Shown here piece after piece: positions 51,672-64,000 of a DNA stretch of 64,000 nt. Under the pieces are notes generated by a model. That model was not told where the DNA came from. It ran no database searches and worked only from the letters and a program-made list of their open reading frames with translations. Within the stretch, counting starts at the first letter, position 1. Each line of letters opens with the position of its first letter. The stretch spans positions 289,436 to 353,435 of the forward strand of contig KN832556.1 in assembly GCA_000827205.1 (NCBI GenBank), in the 5' to 3' direction. The position numbers and the translations under genes were made by a program. Source of the DNA: Plicaturopsis crispa FD-325 SS-3. Taxonomy: Eukaryota; Basidiomycota; Agaricomycetes; Amylocorticiales; Amylocorticiaceae.

Positions 51672-52250
51672 TTCCTGTGTTCAAGTCAAGTAGTAGCGAC
51701 AGTCGGTACAGAGGATGCGACGGCAAATCGAAGGTTGGGAAAAAGTAAGTGTGCCAGTTGTTTTCCAAACGTTGAGTAGAGAGTGGCTGACAACTGGGCA
51801 TAGTATCGAAAGTCGATCCTACCAGTGTATCTACTGCCTATAAGCTAACACAGCATATCGCCACAGATTTCGGAAGCGGAAAAACTTGGTCGGATTTGGC
51901 ATTTCCGTGAGATATTCCCACATCCATCCAAGTCGCGTTCTGCTCTCCGCGATATCCTCGACAATCTCGCATCTGCCTACATTTTCCTAGCTGAAAAATC
52001 ACCGTCGTGACTTAGCAATGCAATCATGAGTTTCGTTTGGTCGCGCGCGCCTGAAGTAAGTCAGTCAGTCGCGTCTCTGCTCAAACCTCCATCTCCGCGC
52101 GCTGCGACGCGTGCACTGCGTCTTGTGCTGGCCAGCTACCAGTTTTTCATTCCAGATTCTGTCACAGTCAAGCTGCTGTGTGCCCCGTGAGTTTGGTGGG
52201 CGTCGCATGAGCCAATATCGTGCAAAGTGGGACGACACATTGCCTTAAAC
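51672..52250. other. Divergent intergenic region at the edge of the transposon block
   Basis: This gap separates the last host gene from the first transposase. It holds the left copy of a 17-base inverted repeat (51815-51831). A CACTA-type end could not be seen. Confidence 0.4.
51815..51831 (+). repeat. Left copy of a 17-base inverted repeat flanking the Tnp2 gene
   Basis: GATCCTACCAGTGTATC here is the exact reverse complement of bases 56437-56453. The two copies bracket the Tnp2 transposase gene, 436 bases before its ATG and 61 bases after its stop. Chance alone is unlikely for a 17-base perfect match over about 5 kb. I found no matching target duplication just outside, so terminal-repeat status is unproved. 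Confidence 0.55.
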
Positions 52251-55200
52251 ATGGCACCCGAGCTTCGGATTCCCTGCAGGTGCGCCCGTTGCTCAACGAA
52301 ATACGGTGGATATGCTCTCCAGACAAAAGGACTCGCTGCCCGACATGCAAAGAAATACCCTATAGGGTCGAATCTGGCTCTTTCTCGGCCTCCACATCCT
52401 TTGGACCCTCCTCAGGACGACGGCGGACTTCCTGACCATCCACACGAACTTTCTGTAGACGGTATGCGACCACAGGGAAACACTCGAGGTGGATTTCTAC
52501 GACGAGGGGACAGCAACGGTCCCCATGATCACCAACGCGCACGGTCCCCTACGGTTGCCGCTGCGCAGCACCGTCGTGCGAGGGGCCTGCATCCTCTATC
52601 CCGCGCCATGTCCCGCGCTCGCGCTCTTTCTCGGCATCTCTCTGGGTCTCAGCAGGGGTCTCGTAGTGCTCGCTCTCGGCCACCTTCGCTCAGCCAGGAC
52701 CACGGCCGCTCTCGCTCGGATTCCAGGATACGTGCCACACATTCGCAGTCCCGATCTTCTGCCCGCGCGCGCTCACGGTCTCCCTCTGGGGCACGTTCAA
52801 GAGGTCGATCTAGGGCTCGGTCCTACACGCGCGTTCGGACGCGTTCTCTGTCTCCGCCTCATGCGCGTTCCCGATCTGGCTCTCGTTCTCGATCACGGAT
52901 GCGTTCTCCGTCCCCGGCCCATGTTCCCGAAGAAGTCTTCAAGCGCGTCGATCCACCCGATATCCCGGACCCTGGAATCGACCGCGAGCAGATGGACGCA
53001 CCGGCAGTAAGGATTCCTGCACTACAAGAAGAGCCGTATGTACGGCTGGCGTACCTGCAAGCCGTTATGGCGAATGTATTCGGGCATGTACCGGTAGAGC
53101 GCGCTACGAAACAGCTTAACGGCACCCTGGACTGCCTGAAGCTCGCTGGAGTCCTCCCCGTTCTGCCAAAACCTGTGCGCACGCTCGCAAGTGCAAAACG
53201 GCGACTCGGGATCGACCCCGATCAGTGGATAATAAAATATGCAATCTGTCCGGTGTGCTGGAAACACCACAACCCTGCCGAGCTCGCTAATCTGGCCTCT
53301 GATGAGTGTACAGTCCCCGGATGCGACGGCAAGATATTCGACACGGTGAACCACAAGCGCATCGCAAGACTGATTAACCCGCAAGTCTCGATAATCGACA
53401 GCTTGCGGCGGATGTTTATGCGACCGGGCTTCGCGAAAAAGGTCGAGAAAAAACCCGAGCACACCCCTGGACGGAACAACAACGAGGATTTTGTCATGAC
53501 GGACATGCAAGACGGCGAAGCGTGGTACAGAAACACGACAGGCACGGTTCGCGAGGTTGGTGACCGTGGTACTGTCCGCGATGTCCCTGGAAACGGTGAC
53601 CCGATGCCTACAAGACTATTTTCGCATCGGTTCGGACTACAGCTCACCATTAATATGGACGGGTAAGTGTCCCGTACCTTCTTCGCAGTCGCTTGCTAAC
53701 TTTGTGCGTGTTCAAGTTTCGGTATCATCGGCGGACGCCCCCATTCCTGCCATGCTTCATACATCTCGATCAACAATCTCTCTCGCGAAGAGCGCTATCT
53801 TCAAGTAAACGTCATTTGCAACAACACGATGCCCGGACCACATGAACCAACCCAACAGCAACTGAATCATTCGATGGAACCGGTCACGAAGGACATGATA
53901 CGGCTCAATAATGGTGAGTGCATCGAAGCCATCGAAGCAATGCATTAATCCTCAACCTTTGCAGGTGTAGAGATGGAGATCTATGGAGAAGAGCCCGACG
54001 ACGTGTTCGCAGACTGTGTCTGCGCCAATTGCGATACACCGACCGCCCGCAAGATGAATGGGACCGCTGGCCATACCCATGACCTCCATCCGTGCCCGTA
54101 CTGCCACGTCGATGTGCTGGATCTCAATCGTGTAGAGGGCTTCAATTACAGTAAGCATTCATTTGTTTTTATGCAGTAGCACATCTGATACGACGATCTG
54201 GATGCTGCTAGCCTCAGAAGATAAGGACGACTACAAAATGCTCCGGCGCGCGTTCGAATCAAGAGTATCCGGCGCTGCCCACCAACTGGTTCTTCTGCGG
54301 GATTACGGGGTTCGCTGGGTCACCTTGAATCTCCTTTCAGGTTGGCTTCCGTCGACGAAGACGGTGCTGGACTTCATGCACAATGTGTTTCTCGGTACCG
54401 TCATCCTTGCATGCTGATATATAATGGCGATACTGATGTTCTGACGCATTATTAGGTCTTATTTGCCATATTTTCATGGAGATCCTCTTCAAGGCCTATA
54501 TGTTCTCCGGTGTCGGAGGGTCGTCGTCGGAAAAACAACACTTCGAAGACATCATCAACGCGGTCCGATGGCCCAGTCACATCACACGTCTGCCAAAGAA
54601 TGTATGTACATCTATAGTACGCGGCTTTGATTCCGCTGATTACCTTGCTCATGTAGCTCGGCGAGAACCAGTCGCTGAAGAAGGCCGATGAATGGCGGCG
54701 CCTGCTTGCCATCACGCCGGTCATACTTTGGCATACCTGGACCCGAGGCCCGCACGACGCAATACCACTGGGTGCACCTCCCATTCCCGCGAACGCGGCT
54801 CGAAACCCAGGTCACTCCCGTAACTATCGAGCGATCTACTCTGCCATACTCTTACTGTGCACAGGTGTCCGAATCTTGGCTTCGCGGAAGATCTCTTTGG
54901 CGCAGGCTCGCATCGGTCAAGATTTTCTTTCGCAATACTGTCGAACTTTACAGGCACTCGGCATTCACATGACAATAAATCACCATCTTGCTATGCACTA
55001 TCTCAAGTTCATCAAGCTTTTTGGACCGGTCTATGCCTGGTGGCTCTTCGCGTTCGAGCGCTTCAACGGTATGCTTGAGAAGGTCAAACATAACGGCCAC
55101 GACGGTGGGCGAATGGAGCTCACCCTCATGCGGCAATGGGTGATGACACACCTTCTTTATGAGTATCTCCTTGCCCTCCCGGTCATCGGAGATCCTACCG

Positions 55201-56375
55201 AACGAAACTACATCGACCAGATCATCCGCAAGGAAGCTCGGGATGAGCGGGGAGGAATGATGACCGAGCTTGCGATATATCGTAGCGAGGCATCAGCGGG
55301 CATGTGTTTTTTTGGCAGCGCACTCAAATACTTGCTGATGCATTGTTTCAGATAACATATCGCTTCCAAAACGAATGCCAAAGCTCATCAACCTTCGTGG
55401 GATACTACCGGCAGGGAGAGTATATGAGCTTTCCGTCCGATACTTTCAACAACTCTGGCCGGCCCTCAACATCATCAGCGACTCGAGCCTCGAAGACGGG
55501 ACGCCGCTGTATGCATCTCAGGTCGCACGGTTGCTTACATACATCCGCAAGGACGGTATTCGGTATGGCTCTGCATCTAATAAGCGGACACAAGCAGATC
55601 GCTATGCCTTTATCTCGGACGGGGCGGGTGGACGGTACCCAGCCGAGATATCAGCCCTGCTGTCTTTCAAGTTAGCAGCAAAACCTGTGCATGTCTGCGC
55701 GGTGATCCGCAGGATGTACGCCGACGATGATATCCCCGTGTTTCCATGGGATCTATAGTAAGTCCGCCATATTCGAATTCCCAGACGACCCTGTGTTGAT
55801 TGTGGATATTAGAGTGTATCAGATGCGCCTTGCGAGACAGTTTTGTTTTTTTGAAGACGAGGTAGTTTTTAACCGACGCTTACGACCTTCAAGTTCGAGA
55901 AGTTCGTCCGAGCGGCGACCTCTGAGCGCACGGTTTTTGCTTTCGGAGAGGTCAAGACAAGTACCGACGACTTGACGAAGGCACGAAGGCGCTGTAAGCG
56001 TCGGTAAAAAACTCGGCAAAAACGACAACGAGCTCTCCGTTTTTTCAGAAAAACGAGCTTGAAAAACCGCGTCTGATACACTCTATTCTTTCACACTAGC
56101 GCTTCCACGCTCGGCCTTCATGTGACCTATGCCGACCGCTACGATGACTATCAAATTATTCCTGTGCGCCTTATTGAGGGACCTTTGGCACTCGTTCCAA
56201 TTCATTCACAGCGCATTAATCGTGATCTCTGGGTCTCAGTTTCGTTTGACCACGTTAGTCATTTTGTTTTGCTATCGGATCACAAGATTATACTGAATAT
56301 AATGTCTTCAAATAGACGGGCAATGAGCCGGATTTACTGGATGACGACGACGACGAGCTTCAAGATGTTGTCTAG
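52251..56375 (+). CDS. Tnp2-type (CACTA/EnSpm-like) DNA transposase with an RS-rich domain
   Basis: The ATG at 52251 starts MAPELRIPCRCARCSTKYGG, a cysteine/histidine motif usual at the start of mushroom Tnp2 proteins. An arginine/serine-rich domain follows (about residues 110-230; for example RARSRSPSGARSRGRSRARS). The core has AICPVCWKHHNPAELANLAS, ADCVCANCDTPTARKMNGTA with GHTHDLHPCPYC, WVTLNLLSGWLPSTK, VLDFMHNVFLGLICHIFMEI and ALGIHMTINHHLAMHYLKFI. The last exons give LGLHVTYADRYDDYQIIPVR, LVPIHSQRINRDLWVSVSFD and a D-rich end (LDDDDDELQDVV). Eight or so introns can be joined without a stop, so it looks whole. One intron may use a GC donor (about 55299), and another holds a MITE. Confidence 0.8.
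55811..56084. mobile_element. MITE nested in an intron of the Tnp2 transposase gene
   Basis: The ends are AGAGTGTATCAGATGCG on the left and, on the other strand, AGAGTGTATCAGACGCG on the right. The arms stay partly complementary further in: TTTTTAACCGACGCTTACG near 55868 against CTGTAAGCGTCGGTAAAAAA near 55990. The element is 274 bases long, and ATT flanks both sides (55808-55810 and 56085-56087) as a 3-base target duplication. This fits a PIF/Harbinger-like or similar small DNA element. It sits between a GTAAGT donor (about 55758) and a CACTAG acceptor (about 56099), so it lies wholly within an intron of about 65 bases that it enlarged. Joining across the intron gives DLYASTLGLHVTYADRY in frame. 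Confidence 0.8.
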
Positions 56376-56436
56376 ACTTGACATGTAAGTGGACCGTTTC
56401 TGAAATAAGTGATTGCGGAGCACTCACGGTGCATGC

Positions 56437-56453
56437 GATACACTGGTAGGATC
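56437..56453 (-). repeat. Right copy of the 17-base inverted repeat
   Basis: GATACACTGGTAGGATC on the plus strand, exact reverse complement of 51815-51831. It lies between the stop codons of the Tnp2 gene and the accessory gene. See the left copy for the argument. Confidence 0.55.
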
Positions 56454-56461
56454 AACCGGAC

Positions 56462-58133
56462 TTACTCGTCCATCAACACATCCGAATCTTCAAGATCCAC
56501 CGTACTCGCCCGCTGCTTCCCTTTGCCTGCCGCCCCCTTCCTCTTCGCCGCTGCCTTCTTCGCCTTCTTTTTCGGTTTCTTTGAGCCCTCACCAGCGCTT
56601 TCCTTGGGCTCAGCCAGCCTCTTCTTCTCCTTCTTTGCTATATCACCCTTCACGTCTTTTACCCGCGACCGATACTTTATTCCCACCTCCGGCTCTTCAC
56701 GATCTCCCCAGGCCACTCCACTAGCCATGATCCGCTTCTCTATGTCGTACTGATGGTTGTCGGGATTCTGTAGCCACTCCGCATCGACCATCCAACGCCG
56801 CGCGCGGTACTCGAGCACTGTCGATGCTTTCGGCGGCTCGAATTGTGGTTCCCCGACGACACGGACTGTGTACTTCGGTTGCGGGTCGGGGTCACTAGTT
56901 GCATCAACGGCGGCTAGAAGCGCTTTCATCTGAAATGAGACCGTGAGTGGTGCCATGCTCGCACGTACAGGACATGAATACTCACCTCTTCGCTCCTGTA
57001 GGCTGGTGGCCTCGTCACGTATTTACCGGTGCGTTTACCGTCTTTATACTCATCCTCGTCGTCTGACATCGCACTCACAATGAAGGCAGTATCGTACTTC
57101 TTGTCACGGTAGGGAGACTCAGCTGGCAATGCACCCCGCTGGCGCACGCGGACTGCAAGTTTCTATCGGTATGTGTCAGTAATCGTGTTTTGTAAAATGC
57201 TGTCGGACTTACCCCCCGAGCTCTGCTAGCTAGAGTCGCCTTCGAAACGACGCCTGGAGCAGCCGGAACGGCCGCCAATGTAGGTTCGATATCAGCGTTC
57301 TCACCGCTAGGTGGCACGGCACCTGATACAGCAATCCCTGGCATCAGCTTCGCGGCACGGAGCTCCTTCTGTAAGCCCTTGTATTTGGCCACAACGCGCT
57401 TCTGGAGGTCATCCTCGCTGATGCCCTTGATCGCTGTAGCTGCTGCCGGAATCAATCCGGTTCCGTGGCGCTTTATATGCCCGACGAGCATCCTGATCGC
57501 GTAGTAGTTGTCGCCATCGTCGTTCCAAGGCTGCTCCCACCGGAAGCGAAGGAGGCGGGTCCTGCCATCGGAGCCAACTTCCATGGGCCACTCCTCTACG
57601 TTGACCGGATACATTGGAAGACTGGCCGCCTTGAGTTTGGCAACGCCCAGGCGGACACGGAAGCACTCGCGGACGAGTTCCTGCCACTCCGTGAGTCTGC
57701 AGTCCTCATGATAACAGCTTGTTCTAACCTTCATGATGTTGTCCGCATATGCAGCCACACTCCTCTTGATTCTCTCGCGGTCTTCTTCTGTCACCACCTC
57801 GTCTGAGTCCACCGAGCTCGCGTCGTCGCCTTCGGCATTCTCGTCGAGCTCCTCCTCGGTGCTCGCCTCTTCGTCAAGCCTCCTCTCTGCCTCTGCCTCT
57901 AATTCCTTGAGCCGCACTGCAACAGCATTCACAACATCCCGGCCCTGCCTCATCTCTCTCTTCACCGAGGCAAGCTCCCCTCGTACGTCTTCTACTTCAG
58001 TTTCGAGTGCCGTAATCTTCAATTTTGACTCGCCTATTGCAGCTAGGATATGAGACACTCGCATAGGTGTACCCTTTGGTATTGCCGGACTGCTCGACGC
58101 TGCCGTAGATGAGGGGTGCGGGGGAGAAGACAT
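56462..58133 (-). CDS. Coiled-coil accessory protein of the transposon block
   Basis: The ATG at 58133 gives MSSPPHPSSTAASSSPAIPK, then a coiled coil (LKITALETEVEDVRGELASV, KRLEELEAEAERRLDEEAS-like run), an acidic patch, RTSCYHEDCRLTEWQELVRE, a globular part (YPVNVEEWPMEVGSDGRTRL, RFRWEQPWNDDGDNYYAIRM) and, after an intron with a GTAAGT donor, RGALPAESPYRDKKYDTAFI with MSDDEDEYKDGKRTGKYVTR. The last exon has a lysine-rich tail (KKPKKKAKKAAAKRKGAAGK) and ends DSDVLMDE. It is convergent with the Tnp2 gene, their stops about 90 bases apart. I recall similar proteins beside mushroom transposases, but know no function. DNA or chromatin binding would fit the basic tail; that is a guess. Confidence 0.65.
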
Positions 58134-58727
58134 CGGAGCGGCTTTGTGATTACCTGACCGTCGCACTGTGTTATAAGTACTAGCTATTAACTACTGCCCT
58201 GCCGCTGATCATGCACAGCATCAGGAAAACGGTGGATTCTTAATTCCTCTAATCTGACTTAATTATCGGAAATTAAGCCACATTAGCGGGAATTAACAGT
58301 AAAAAAAATTAGAGGTTTTAGCTACCCCCCCCTCTACTTTAGCATCAAATTAGAGGCTGTAATGGATATTCGTAGCAGTTATCTACAACATACACTAACT
58401 CAGCATGTATCTGATTGAATTTGAGTCTACTCAACACATAATCCAACTTACAGCCATATCATATGGAAGCAGTTTTGTGGAACATGGTACAAGTCAAGGC
58501 GAAGTCAAGACGATCAAATCAATTATATTGGCGAGTACCGCTAAATCACGAAGCCCAATTCAAATTGAGGTGAATGTATAAGTCCGAGAATTATGGAGAG
58601 AGTACTAAGGCTAGAAAAGAGATGTGGTTTGAGCTGTAAGGAAGACGAGAAACAAGCTGAGTGGACAGATAAGCGACTAAAAGAGTGGATAAGAAGTATA
58701 GGAACGGATAACCGTGTAGAAACCAAA
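58134..58727. repeat. AT-rich inverted-repeat cluster between two transposon modules
   Basis: CCTCTAAT at 58247 and ATTAGAGG at 58309 form an imperfect palindrome of about 70 bases, and another AATTAGAGG occurs near 58347. Short runs of AATTAAG and GGAATTAAC lie between them. The stretch separates two gene pairs of the transposon block and is much more AT-rich than both. It could hold subterminal repeats or the joined ends of two elements. No clear target duplication was found. The rest of the interval up to 58727 is 3' flank of the DUF6532 gene, with nothing else recognised. Confidence 0.4.
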
Positions 58728-61683
58728 CTACTCCTCATCAGAGTTAATCGGCATGTGATCAACATCCATCAAGTTCACGGCGTCGTCGTCGGCGTAGTCG
58801 ACGGATGAAGATGAAGCCCTGTGGAAACTGTGAGATAGCGCAACATTGAAATGCGGAAAGAACCTTACACGGTCAGCTTGTAAAGTCTTGAAAGCAAAGC
58901 GCGGTGAGCTTGCGAATTCTTGACGCGCACACGATCGATGATTCGCAGGTGCGTATCATATGTATTCTTGTAGCGGTCGTGGTCAAAACTGATATCCTGG
59001 TGAGGTCCGTTGCCACGTTCTTCAATGCAGCAACACATCTAAAAAACAGAGTCAGCGATGATGAGAGTCACGTATAGGGAACGCTATACCGCCGTCGCAA
59101 TGAATGCTAATAGCTCCGGGGGAAGCAGCTGTTTGGCGCCAGTCGTAGTGTCCCCCGGCTGCTGGAGTTTTTCGCGTACGAGATCAACCGTTTCGGTTTT
59201 GGTAGCAAAGAACGCCACGAGCGCTGCCGTGACCGCGGGATGATAGTACCCCCGTGCCGTGTCTGATTTGCCAGCCTGGGTCACGGTTTAGCATTCAGCG
59301 GACAATACCAGAAGTGTTACATACCAGTATATCTCCTGGATATATGAACGACTGCCCATTAATCAGGGCCCGCGCCAGCTTCTTTGTGCGGTCGGTCAGC
59401 CCATAGGAGCCGAGAACAGCGCTTCGGATAGCAGCCTTGACACTCGAGCGGTAGTTTGAGAAGCGATTGTACGGCTGAATAGAGAGGTAAGTAGACATGA
59501 CGGAAGCCGAACGAAGTTGGGGGACTTACGATCTGGATGATGTATCTGCGATACGTGGCATCCTGTCGAACACGGTCCCTAACGTCGTCCATGCTCAGTG
59601 ATCGCGTTGCTTTGATAATTGCCTCCAGTGAGAGGAGTTGTAGGTCCTTCCTCGGAGCGAATGGGTTTACGAGCAATGCACTGCTGTTCAAAATGGGCAT
59701 AGCCGCACGGATTAGTTCCCTGATTTTCGGATGCTGCTGTCCAAGGCATAGATTCCCGGGTTTCGAGGGGAAGACAATGTCAGGGGCACCAGGCCATGAC
59801 TCCTCAGAGGACTCGTCGTTTGCATCACTGTCATTGTCAGCTGACGAGCTTGAGCGGCGTTGAGTGGGCTTCTTCGCGACGGTGGTGGACGAGCTTGAGC
59901 GGTGATGAGTCGGCCTCTTCGCAACGGTAGTGGACGAGCTTGAGTGGTGATGAGTCGGCCTCTTCGCGGCGGGAGCGGACGAACTTGAACGATGATGAAT
60001 TGGCCTCTTCGCGGCGGGAGCGGACGAGCTGGAGCGGCGTTGAGCTTGCTTCTTGGCGGTTGGATCACGTTCAACCGAACGGCTCCTGTTGCGGGGGTGA
60101 CTAACATCACGGGCCTGGTCTTGGTCCTGGGCTTCATCCTCATCGGATTGCCATGTCGGACGCTGGAACAGCAGGGCATCAAAGAAGGGGCAACGAAATA
60201 ATTGAATAAAACATACCTCGGTGTTGCGACGTTCCTGGTGCTTTGCTCCCTGAGTTTAGGATTAGACACTGACACTGCAGCAAGACCATGCGAGTAGATC
60301 GAAGACAATATGCGTACCGATTTTCCTGAACGCCTCCGTTTTGAGGATTGTCCTCGGTTGTTGCCGCGTGTATCCTCGTCTCCGTTGTCGTTGTCGTCCA
60401 AGTCCATGCCGTCGTTGTGTTCGTCCGTGCCGTCGTTGTGTTCGTCCATACCGCCATCGTGTTCGTCCATACCGCCGTCGTGCTCGTCCATGCCGTCGTA
60501 GCCGGATGGACCCTCTTCCGAGTTGGCATTGGTACCATCATTCAAGGCTGCATGGCCGTCGTCTCCGGCACCTACATATAGCCATTTAAGCAACCTATAA
60601 AGTCATAAGGAAAATGATACAGACCGGGGGAGGGAGAGCGGCTCATGCGCCCGCGCTGAGGAGGACGAGGAGCATCAAATTGGGGCTCATGGTGTGCACT
60701 TTCTCTCTGAGAATCTCTCCAGGACGGAATCTAGCAGCAGGGTTCAGGACAAATAAGCGACGAGCGTGAAAATGCACGCACGTATCCCTTGTTAGAGCCA
60801 GAATCCTCCGGTACGTCTTGTTCCTCGTCCTCGGGGTCATGAGGACCACTGTGTGCGATCTCCTGGGTGGGCGCCGGTTGACCGTTATTCGGTGGGTCAC
60901 TGTCGTCCTCGGAATCCTCGTATTGTACGCGAGGCGCTTTCCTATGTTTCGTTTCGGCTAAGAGTGATGTTTAGCGACAAAAAATGTTTTATCTTATCTT
61001 GGATGGCACTCACAAGTCTTTGCACGGTCTCTATCCTGATCCGAATCTTGCTCGAGGATGGGAGGAGGTAAGAATGCGTTGGGCGCCTTGCCTGCACAGC
61101 GTGTGAACATTAAACACTTGACTTCCCAAATCGGTCGACTGACCTTTCTTGCCGCTACTTTTGCTTGGTTTCCCACCTGTCGACGACGACTGTGTGCTGC
61201 CACCCTCAGGCTCGGCTGTTGCAACCGCGTAAGGCCCATGCTAATTTGAAGATGGAACCAATGTACTTAAGGTCCTTGGTTGTTTCGCAGGTTTTGCTGA
61301 TGTGCTTGACGCGATGTCTTCAGTCCCTTCCGAGGGCCGCTTCGGTCTGCGCAGCGGCGCAGGCGTTGCAACAGCAGGGTTTTGCCAGACTGGGAAAAGG
61401 TACATCGGTCAGCATAATGTTGTTATTTGTAAGAAGCAAGCATCATTGCTTACCAGGAGCTGTTTTGTTCCTTGAAGGGCGTGGTCCTGCCGTGTTCAAC
61501 GACAGTGAGGTGAGCAAAATGAATTGGCCAAGAGCAGGCCACATCATTACCTTGAACGCTCATCAGTCTCTCTGCTTCTTCAGCCTCCGCGGCGAGTTTC
61601 CTGGCCTTATTGAAGGCCCGTCGCTCCGCCTGGGACATGTTCTGAACCTGCAACAGATCTATATGCTGTGGTTTCGGCGGCAT
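58728..61683 (-). CDS. DUF6532 protein paired with the Plavaka transposase
   Basis: The ATG at 61683 gives MPPKPQHIDLLQVQNMSQAE and a helix (RRAFNKARKLAAEAEEAERL). About 500 disordered residues follow over several exons, including a MDEHDGG/MDEHNDG repeat and five copies of a 15-residue RSSSSAPAAKRPTHH-type repeat. The folded C-terminal domain is DUF6532: IRELIRAAMPILNSSALLVN, LQLLSLEAIIKATRSLSMDD, YRRYIIQI, RTKKLARALINGQSFIYPGD, GYYHPAVTAALVAFFATKTE and LLPPELLAFIATAVY. Near the end is FDHDRYKNTYDTHLRIIDRV. The last exon ends MPINSDEE with TAG at 58728-58730. DUF6532 genes are abundant in mushroom genomes, often near transposons. The head-to-head layout with the transposase suggests that it belongs to the element. 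Confidence 0.75.
59843..60067. repeat. 45-base tandem repeat (five units) inside the DUF6532 gene
   Basis: Units begin GACGAGCTTGAGCGGTGATG and vary by a few bases each, with the fifth partial. On the coding strand they give a 15-residue repeat of the form RSSSSAPAAKRPTHH, a serine patch plus a basic patch. Because 45 is a multiple of three, gain or loss of a unit keeps the frame. Confidence 0.75.
60408..60491. repeat. 21-base tandem repeat (four units) inside the DUF6532 gene
   Basis: Units read GCCGTCGTTGTGTTCGTCCAT and close variants. They encode a seven-residue acidic repeat (MDEHDGG/MDEHNDG). The unit length keeps the reading frame. Confidence 0.75.
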
Positions 61684-61917
61684 GGCCCCAGACGGAGTAA
61701 GCTTGTGAAATCTCGGAGTATGGAAGGATGAAGAGGGTAGAAATGGCAATACGGGGTAGAAAGAAACAGGAGAAATTTCCAGGTGCGTTGCGCCACGTCA
61801 ACCGCATTTTCTTTGTTTACTCAACTCTCGAACCCACAGATCTTCTGGGCCGATCTACCGCTACGCTCTACAAATCACCACCTCGCCTTACTTGTGGCAA
61901 TTATCTACAAGAATTTC
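61684..61917. promoter_or_regulatory. Short bidirectional promoter between DUF6532 and Plavaka genes
   Basis: Only 234 bases separate the two start codons, which point away from each other. This is the typical layout of a shared promoter in a compact element. No motif was recognised. Confidence 0.5.
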
Positions 61918-64000
61918 ATGGCTATACACTGTCTGTCCTGCAAACGGCTTGTTGCAAATCGGCGAGGACTTGCGCTCCACCGCTGTCGACCATCTCGCCA
62001 CAGCCGTACTCGACAGCGCCATAACGACGACATCGACAATGAGACTGCAATGAATATCGACCCTTCCGACGAGGAGCCACTTCCCGCAGATATGTCAGAC
62101 GGAGGCTCGGACGGCCAGCCCATGGCTGTCGATCCAGCTCGGGCAGCTAGCGAACCGATTGCTATCGCAGACGACATCCCCAATTCACCTGGGCATTTCA
62201 ACGGCGACTTTTTTGGGGAGCACTACGAGGACGGGGATTTTGATGGTGACATCCCAGACCTAGCCTCGGACACCTCTGACGACGAGTACTGCGAGAACTC
62301 TGACTCTGATTCCGATTCATCGGAGTCGGATGAGGATGTCGAGTATGACGAAGAGCCTTGCGCGGACCCAGACTCTCGCGACAATATTGCGGAGGCGAGT
62401 AGCGCGCAGGAACGCAACCGCTTGGCTGAGCATCGTGCCGCCGTTGAAGAGCGTTACCTTTCGCCTCCACATGTCCAAGAGTTTCCGGGCCGCGCTGGTG
62501 AGCGCTTGCAAACAGCGAAGGAGGATTCGGGCTATCACAAGTACAAAGATTGGCTGGGGGACGATTGCATGTGGGCACCGTTCGCCTCTCGTCTAGAATG
62601 GGAGGTTGCGCGTTGGGCAAAAACGCGTGGTCCGGGGTCCACAGCCTTCACGGAATTGCTCTCCATTGAGGGTGTAAGTTCACATCCTTTTTAGCTTATT
62701 GGAGACCATCACTGATCATTCGTGCAGGTCCAGGAGAAACTCGGGCTTTCCTTTGCGAATACAAAGCAGCTCAACAAGATAATCGATAACGACCTACCGA
62801 AACGTCCGCGCTTCCACCCCCGATCCATCAAAGTCGCTGGGGAAACGTACGATGTATACTTCCGCGATGTTCTTGAATGCGTCAAAGCACTGTACGGGGA
62901 TCCCGAATTTGCTCGCCATCTCGTATTTGCCCCCGAACGTCACTACACCGACGCCGACCGGACAGTGCGCATGTTCCATGACATGCACACCGGGAAATGG
63001 TGGTGGGAGACGCAAGTAAGTGTCCGTAATACATGCCATCCATTATGTAGCCAATCTAATATTTTCTCTGCTCTAACAGAAGGCAGTAGAGGCTCGTACA
63101 CCTGGGGCAACTATCGCACCCATCATCATCTCTTCCGACAAAACTCAGATTACATTATTCCGCAACAAAACTGCTTACCCCGTCTACATGACCATCGGCA
63201 ACATTCCTAAGGATATCCGGCGCAAGCCCTCTCGCCGTGCATATGTCCTCCTCGGCTACCTTCCTACCTCTCGCCTCGAGCACATTACCAATAAAGAATC
63301 TCGTCGCCGCACCCTCGCAAACCTTTTCCACGCGTGCATGCGACGCATACTACACCCTCTAAAGATCCCCGGACAGAGCGGAATTCCTATGTCCAGTGGC
63401 GACGGAGTGGTCCGACGTGTGCATCCCATTTTCGCTGCGTTCGTGGGCGACTATCCCGAGCAGGTACTCGTCACCGGTGTCAAGAACGGTGACTGTCCGA
63501 AATGCGAGATTGCGCGGCCCGATCGTGGCGACGGTGACGCAGAATTCGAGTTTCGTGATCTGGAGCGTGTTCTCGACGCTTTACAGCAGTTCGACGACGA
63601 CAACTTTGAGAACATCTGTAAAGAAGCAGGTGTCAAACCACTGTTCCACCCGTTCTGGGAGGACCTTCCATACGTCGACATCTACCGTTCTATAACACCC
63701 GACGTGCTGCACCAGCTGTACCAGGGTGTTATCAAGCATCTCATCGAGTGGGTTACAAAGGCGGTGGGGCCTGACGAGGTCGACGCGCGCTGTCAGCGAC
63801 TGCCGCCAAATCATAACATACGCCTCTTCATGAAAGGGATCACAGGCCTCTCGCGAGTAACGGGCGAAGAGCACAATCAAATGTGCCGGTTCCTCATGGC
63901 CCTTGTAGTCGACGTGCGATTGCCTGGTGGTCCGAATGCGAGGGCGCGGCTTGTGCAGGCTGTCCGAGCCCTGCTCGACTTTCTCTACCTCGCGTGTTAC
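61918..64000 (+). CDS. Plavaka-type transposase (partial, runs off the window)
   Basis: Plavaka transposases belong to the CACTA/EnSpm-related DNA transposons of basidiomycetes. The ATG at 61918 gives a cysteine/histidine motif (MAIHCLSCKRLVANRRGLAL, then HRC), an acidic disordered part (SDEEPLPADMSDGGSDGQPM, NSDSDSDSSESDEDVEYDEE), then SGYHKYKDWLGDDCMWAPFA with SRLEWEVARW, FAPERHYTDADRTVRMFHDM, HTGKWWWETQ, and after an intron IIISSDKTQITLFRNKTAYP with VYMTIGNIPKDIRRKPSRRA. Later parts are HPIFAAFVGDYPEQVLVTGV, CPKCEI, the linked PDVLHQLYQGVIKHL and PPNHNIRLFMKGITGLSRVT. Two introns join in frame and no break is visible up to the edge. It looks whole so far and could be young. Confidence 0.85.

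Follow-up and report, generated by a model that had tools for sequence, protein, structure and literature searches.

In plants, CACTA transposons terminate in CAC..GTG and carry a target duplication of 3 bp. Fungal EnSpm elements are described with CAC..GTG ends and a 3-bp duplication (PMC12730594), and maize En/Spm was reported to need both of its proteins, TnpA and TnpD (PMC1636069). For PlavakaB elements, termini of 5'-CATCA..TGATG-3' and a target duplication of 2 or 3 bp have been given (Kojima 2025, PMC12730594), and in two Ganoderma species DUF6532 was listed, alongside Plavaka, as one of the additional encoded domains (PMC8955403). Here, we analyzed a stretch of 64,000 nucleotides (the window) from Plicaturopsis crispa FD-325 SS-3 (contig KN832556.1, positions 289,436 to 353,435 of the forward strand), in the last part of which a Tnp2-type transposase gene and a Plavaka transposase gene each lie beside a second gene, encoding a coiled-coil protein and a DUF6532 protein, respectively. 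With a probability of roughly 60%, we read this region as two complete, autonomous-looking cut-and-paste CMCT (CACTA-like) transposons, one nested within the other, each a two-gene unit whose second protein would serve as an end-binding or anti-silencing cofactor. We consider it very likely, close to certain, that each pair of genes moves as a unit.

The gene order, orientations, and spacings given in the initial annotation can be read directly from the sequence. The Tnp2-type gene and the coiled-coil gene converge with their stop codons approximately 86 bp apart, and the DUF6532 and Plavaka genes diverge across a gap of 234 bp (Table 1). The same annotation had placed two transposase-plus-partner modules side by side; the two modules are real, but they are nested, with the Plavaka element lying inside the Tnp2 element. 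In the following, C3 denotes the contig holding the window, and coordinates prefixed with it are contig positions, whereas those without a prefix are window positions. All genome-wide counts and searches refer to a single genome, the window's own, which comprises 33.2 Mb in 49 contigs. The gene content of the window, with Plavaka, DUF6532, and Tnp2-type genes and short introns, agrees with a mushroom-forming fungus.

Table 1. Coordinates of the features belonging to the two nested elements.
Feature	Position	Strand	Remarks
Outer element, left end	51846..51870	+	Inverted repeat CACAGCATATCGCCACAGATTT from 51849, preceded by target duplication TAA (51846-51848)
Tnp2-type transposase gene, outer element	52251..56375	+	Several exons; splice sites partly by eye
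MITE-like (miniature inverted-repeat transposable element) insertion, ~276 bp	55810..56085	.	TA at both edges, 18-bp inverted repeats, nested palindromes
Coiled-coil, lysine-tailed partner gene, outer element	56462..58133	-	ATG 58133; stop 56462-56464
Inner element, left end	58217..58243	+	Inverted repeat CATCAGGAAAACGGTGGATTCTTAA (25 bp), preceded by target duplication AG (58217-58218)
Inner element, left-end stretch	58219..58352	+	11 further genome matches, one of them 93 bp long and the other 10 near 134 bp (82-86%)
DUF6532 partner gene, inner element	58728..61683	-	ATG 61683
Space between DUF6532 and Plavaka start codons	61684..61917	.	234 bp; putative shared promoter region
Plavaka transposase gene, inner element	61918..64000, last exon on to C3:354287	+	ATG 61918

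The inner element is a PlavakaB transposon with a divergent DUF6532/Plavaka gene pair. A paired-end search on both sides of this pair delimited it from 58219 to C3:354803, equivalent to 7,150 bp. Its right end lies beyond the window and consists of CATCAGGAAAACGGTGGATTCTTAA in inverted orientation, identical over all 25 bp, which finishes at C3:354803 and is followed by AG. Both the DUF6532 and the Plavaka gene are located within these ends, and the coiled-coil gene is located outside. The ends begin with CATCAGG and thereby show the CATCA..TGATG termini of PlavakaB, and the duplicated dinucleotide, AG in the window, is TT, TG, and AA at three other elements. The cysteine and histidine motifs C(2)C and H(3-4)H were found between the second D and the last E of the window copy, as CPKC and HFLRH in this order. 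The catalytic acidic residues are our own assignment, made with self-written D and E patterns that were fully matched in only two of seven copies (C3 and C15); CxxC and HxxxH are present in all seven. With regards to the genes themselves, the Plavaka transposase domain (PF18759) reached 308 bits within one exon at a cut-off of 26.3, and the gene shows a finger-like start (C-x2-C..H) as well as the stretches DKT, GDYPEQ, CPKC, HFLRH, and NTEYTERLH. The DUF6532 domain was modelled from five exons (60255-59530, 59474-59325, 59275-59090, 59038-58869, and 58818-58728) separated by four introns of approximately 50 nt, all GT..AG, through which the domain frame remains open; exons between 60256 and 61683 were assigned by eye, outside the exon model. 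The spliced domain matched PF20149 with 102 bits, which is over the curated cut-off, at profile positions 2-193 of 194. Two tandem repeats lie in the same gene region, one of 45 bp at 59843-60067, which encodes the RSSSS/KR repeats of the protein, and one of 21 bp at 60386-60490.

When the DUF6532/Plavaka pairs were searched with short flanks no ends were found, and wider flanks revealed them. Ends of the TGT..ACA type, as in PlavakaA, were rejected for these pairs, as there was no convincing pair among the candidates. CATCAGG begins each of the three matches to the left-end stretch that were read. One match (C2:438709) lies approximately 2.3 kb before the weak-scoring Plavaka locus C2:441176, so that rather different transposases may share ends.

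The outer element, an EnSpm/CACTA-like transposon, comprises the Tnp2-type transposase gene together with the coiled-coil gene that converges on it. Its ends were sought after removing the Plavaka insert plus one AG copy. The right end, CACAGCACAACGTCGCTCATTT at C3:355085-355106, is followed by TAA, and the element extends from 51849 to C3:355106 with the termini CACAGC..GCTGTG, enclosing the inner element; the right ends of both elements thus lie beyond the window. A second copy on contig C13 (1009367-1015580) has the ends CACAGCGCATCATCGCAGATTT and CACAGCGCAACGCCACAGATTT, likewise CACAGC..GCTGTG, with GGG on both sides, and both elements contain copies of the Tnp2-type gene and of the convergent coiled-coil gene. 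The CAC..GTG termini and the 3-bp target duplication of EnSpm/CACTA elements (TAA on C3, GGG on C13) are therefore found in both copies. The outer ends were not top-ranked by their first 12 bases, and other end-like pairs scored similarly at the window alone; they were chosen because of their CAC start, the 3-bp duplication, the 21 of 30 matching bases, and the occurrence of the same ends at the C13 copy. Counted from coiled-coil codon 25, the right end is by our calculation 458 nt away in the window once the Plavaka insert is removed, compared with 460 nt in the C13 copy, which fits both the nesting and the end positions. A Transposase_21 domain (PF02992) was found neither in a six-frame search of the locus nor in the hand-spliced stretch. 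Kinship with Tnp2-type transposases was seen nevertheless, as the core exon matches stretches beside 7 of the 11 PF02992 loci of the genome at 27-38% identity; a DUF4218 match was weak and below the cut-off. The sole relative of the coiled-coil gene detected in the genome adjoins the second Tnp2 copy on C13, and a genome search revealed no third member of this family at E 0.01.

A pattern derived from the outer ends gave 20 genome matches with up to three mismatches, compared with four for the control. Four of the 20 are the source ends or their partner, eight form four further pairs spaced 2.0-3.7 kb apart (C4:650789-654513, C5:416427-418424, C13:922567-924750, and C23:201113-203486), which are probably non-autonomous relatives, and eight are single, with three mismatches. 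The MITE-like insertion interrupts an intron of the Tnp2-type gene, close to the 3' end of that gene; it has a 76% relative at C3:2219101, and the C13 copy lacks a counterpart at the corresponding position. In addition, a 20-nt inverted repeat with 19 of 20 positions matching was noted at 51812-51831 and 56437-56456, one arm being 17 bp outside the outer element and the other between its two genes. As ends of the Tnp2 element this repeat was rejected, since it was not found in the C13 copy, no other copy with fewer than three mismatches occurs in the genome, and one arm is outside the element.

The initial annotation had asked for consistent pairing inside shared terminal repeats, and this is borne out at the window, where each pair is enclosed by common ends and a target duplication, and recurs elsewhere in this genome. 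Plavaka matches were grouped by hand into 37 loci, 23 of which were considered strong (a summed score of 140 bits or more, with the threshold chosen in view of the list). A divergent partner lies within 4 kb at 18 of the 23 strong loci, DUF6532 at 11 and a second family at seven, and the chance expectation is approximately 0.0014 per locus. If the window locus and those on C5 and C23 are left out, as these prompted the searches, 15 of 20 strong loci remain paired. Viewed from the partner side, 35 DUF6532 match pieces were grouped by hand into 16 loci, 11 of which are divergent to a Plavaka gene at a distance of 2.2-3.5 kb, and one more (C17:94847) is near a Plavaka gene on the same strand. The terminal motif of the window's inner element (11 bases, a length fixed after the ends of other elements had been seen) was found in the right orientation with at most one mismatch downstream of 10 of the 15 other DUF6532 loci, whereas 299 shuffled motifs gave 0.19 on average and at most 2, and on the wrong strand the motif was found at 1 of 15 loci.

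In four of the eight DUF6532 pairs examined, these being the pairs with available flanks, the two genes are surrounded by a left and a right end and a 2-bp duplication: the window pair on C3, C9, C6b (C6:1559255-1566408), and C17:129855-137211. The C7 and C8 pairs are 80% alike over 6.6 kb, and this likeness stops at CATCTGGAAAA on the DUF6532 side and continues beyond the compared sequence on the other. Besides these pairs, a small element-like stretch at C6:615153-616936 with both Plavaka-type ends and AC on both sides is located at the 3' end of a Plavaka gene and resembles a non-autonomous copy that is nested there. At C10:545757 and C5:301495, the same Plavaka-type end lies beside DUF6532 with no Plavaka match, and these loci are possibly partner-only derivatives.

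The coiled-coil and the DUF6532 proteins belong to different families, and the second family of Plavaka partners adds a further one. It was first seen at two Plavaka loci, on C5 and C23, as a different divergent gene located directly upstream, and searches with these two genes revealed relatives beside Plavaka on C10, C1, C7:720199 (a weak match, E 7.7e-4), C6:578017, and C12, as well as a match at C7:297811, 10.6 kb from a Plavaka gene. Two members gave no match to DUF6532 (PF20149) in the Pfam search, and in one member an AT-hook match was just below the cut-off. By eye, the pattern and the splice sites of the family resemble those of DUF6532. An hhalign comparison returned a probability of only 2.4% with a single-comparison P of 0.019, and its score of 22.3, compared with a shuffled mean of 13.1, was reached by 1 of 150 shuffles. 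A common origin of the second family as a remote relative of DUF6532 is therefore possible, the profile comparison being suggestive only.

It is well shown by these data that the partner genes belong to the transposons. Regarding their function, an end-binding or anti-silencing cofactor comparable to TnpA of En/Spm is the most likely role we infer. In such a scheme, a PlavakaB-type element would have inserted into an EnSpm-like element, and the transposase of each would cut and join the DNA. The second protein, with its lysine-rich or serine/arginine-rich tail and a core that appears helical by eye, would bind the ends of its own element and might help to bring them together, shield the element from silencing, or both, as TnpA does for maize En/Spm.

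Several observations weigh against this two-gene reading or its generality. No DNA-binding domain over the cut-off was found in the DUF6532 or the coiled-coil protein, the weak matches being low-complexity or coiled-coil. A TnpA-like binder would be expected to use end-proximal repeats as its sites. Such repeats are clear only in C9, with the window element being borderline and C6b and C17 having none, and neither Tnp2 element shows conspicuous octamer repeats at its ends. Relatives of the coiled-coil gene were undetected at all 11 PF02992 loci in the genome search, and nothing evident was seen in the short flanks of the six other Tnp2 loci inspected for such a partner. Among the strong Plavaka loci, a partner was undetected at C7:1664351, C1:3138584, and C17:119552, the one of C7:286065 lies 10.6 kb away, and that of C17:99037 is a DUF6532 gene in tandem, not divergent; the upstream DNA was read at C7:1664351 only, with no partner evident there. 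A partner was detected at none of the 14 weak Plavaka loci. Conversely, no Plavaka match was found near 4 of the 16 DUF6532 loci (C7:1583981, C10:544813, C5:300551, and C5:1955072). The terminal motif lies near the first three, and the fourth is near a contig end, where the motif occurs with one mismatch and in the wrong orientation. With respect to the ends, an end-like pair on C15 scores equal to those of C6 and C17 but does not carry the CATCAGGAAA consensus and was left out of the count, a further left end is possible for C17, and C6a, C7, and C8 are without the full set of ends and duplication. Apart from these points, a search of solved structures yielded nothing credible for the coiled-coil protein (best E 0.34) or for DUF6532 (best E 0.038), and no relatives of the Tnp2 or Plavaka exons were found in viral contigs.

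With this in mind, it has to be considered that the second proteins are purely regulatory, binding the repeats of their element and keeping its promoters unmethylated like VANC, but standing outside the cutting complex. We regard this as unlikely, although it deserves serious attention: VANC proteins offer a precedent from plants, other Plavaka elements are described as carrying TET/JBP genes thought to counter silencing (PMC12730594), the putative shared divergent promoter region fits self-regulation, and the partner genes are more divergent than their own transposases. However, the frequent pairing and the divergence in step would fit an essential cofactor too, and the candidate binding repeats are clear in only one of the four elements.

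The in-step divergence also bears on the idea that the partners are passengers or captured host genes that add nothing to movement. The distances between DUF6532 proteins correlate with those between Plavaka proteins (Mantel r 0.93, p 0.0014, seven pairs; r 0.81, p 0.0097 without C7, one member of a close pair), and DUF6532 was the less similar of the two in all 21 comparisons. This set comprises 7 of the 11 pairs; C6a was left out owing to a short transposase frame, and C24, C28, and C47 because no full transposase sequence was available. Some Plavaka loci have no detected partner, and hence the partner may be dispensable. Yet the partner is kept in the same divergent place across diverse lineages, both genes diverge in step over deep distances, and 15 of the 16 DUF6532 loci, all except C5:1955072, have a Plavaka gene or a Plavaka-type end in the right orientation nearby, so that no free host family is evident. 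Mere passengers are thus improbable.

We consider it more doubtful still that the pairs derive from transposon genes which the host has domesticated and retained for a role of its own. The Tnp2 lineage of the window and its coiled-coil gene were found in just two copies, and the differences between them (NG86) that change the protein are few beside the silent ones: for the Tnp2-type gene, the nonsynonymous divergence (dN) is 0.11 and 0.25 in two exons, with the synonymous divergence (dS) saturated and not computable, and for the coiled-coil gene dN is 0.51 and dS is 1.78. Such a pattern could reflect a host function, but ends and target duplications are readable at both copies, four similar end pairs exist elsewhere, and a Plavaka element as well as a MITE inserted in the window copy. 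Together with the co-divergence, the substitution pattern fits partner proteins that are kept for the use of the element. Lastly, chance neighborhood of the genes is virtually excluded with 18 of 23 strong Plavaka loci paired where approximately 0.03 would be expected, with Tnp2 and the coiled-coil gene paired in two of two cases, and with shared ends contradicting it.

Coming back to the reading as two-gene elements, a broader version may be considered, in which DUF6532 and its remote relatives would form one ancient family, the general divergent partner of Plavaka needed for end recognition or for escape from silencing, and an unrelated coiled-coil partner would serve the Tnp2 lineage. We put this forward tentatively, at slightly less than even odds; if true, two-protein transposition would be the rule in these fungal elements. 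In any case, DUF6532 (PF20149), a curated domain family to which Pfam assigns no role in its name or description, is now tied to one kind of mobile element. In the portions of the open-licence literature that were searched, including PMC12730594, PMC8955403, and PMC9674265, no statement was found that DUF6532 or a divergent partner is part of Plavaka; the link between DUF6532 and Plavaka elements was therefore not met in this literature. For genome annotation, DUF6532-type genes close to Plavaka call for a check on whether they belong to a transposon before being included in the host gene count. The data also suggest that movement relies on two proteins not only in plant CACTA elements, where this is known, but likewise in fungal Plavaka and EnSpm-like elements, and that the partners evolve faster than the enzymes they serve.

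For a comparison with known systems, Arabidopsis VANDAL elements belong to another superfamily than the elements described here. Their VANC proteins are likewise transposon-encoded second proteins that act on the element's own sequence, a likeness drawn from their description and not from domains. The inner element shares with PlavakaB, as described in the passages of PMC12730594 covered here, the Plavaka transposase domain, the CATCA..TGATG ends, and the 2-bp duplication. In these passages, some Plavaka elements are presented as carrying TET/JBP and others as lacking it, and neither DUF6532 nor any other divergent partner is mentioned, whereas the inner element carries DUF6532. With maize En/Spm, as far as it is portrayed in PMC1636069, the elements of this study have in common that two proteins are encoded by the element, a Tnp2-type transposase being one of the En/Spm pair. 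However, both En/Spm proteins arise from one alternatively spliced unit, whereas two separate and oppositely oriented genes are found here.

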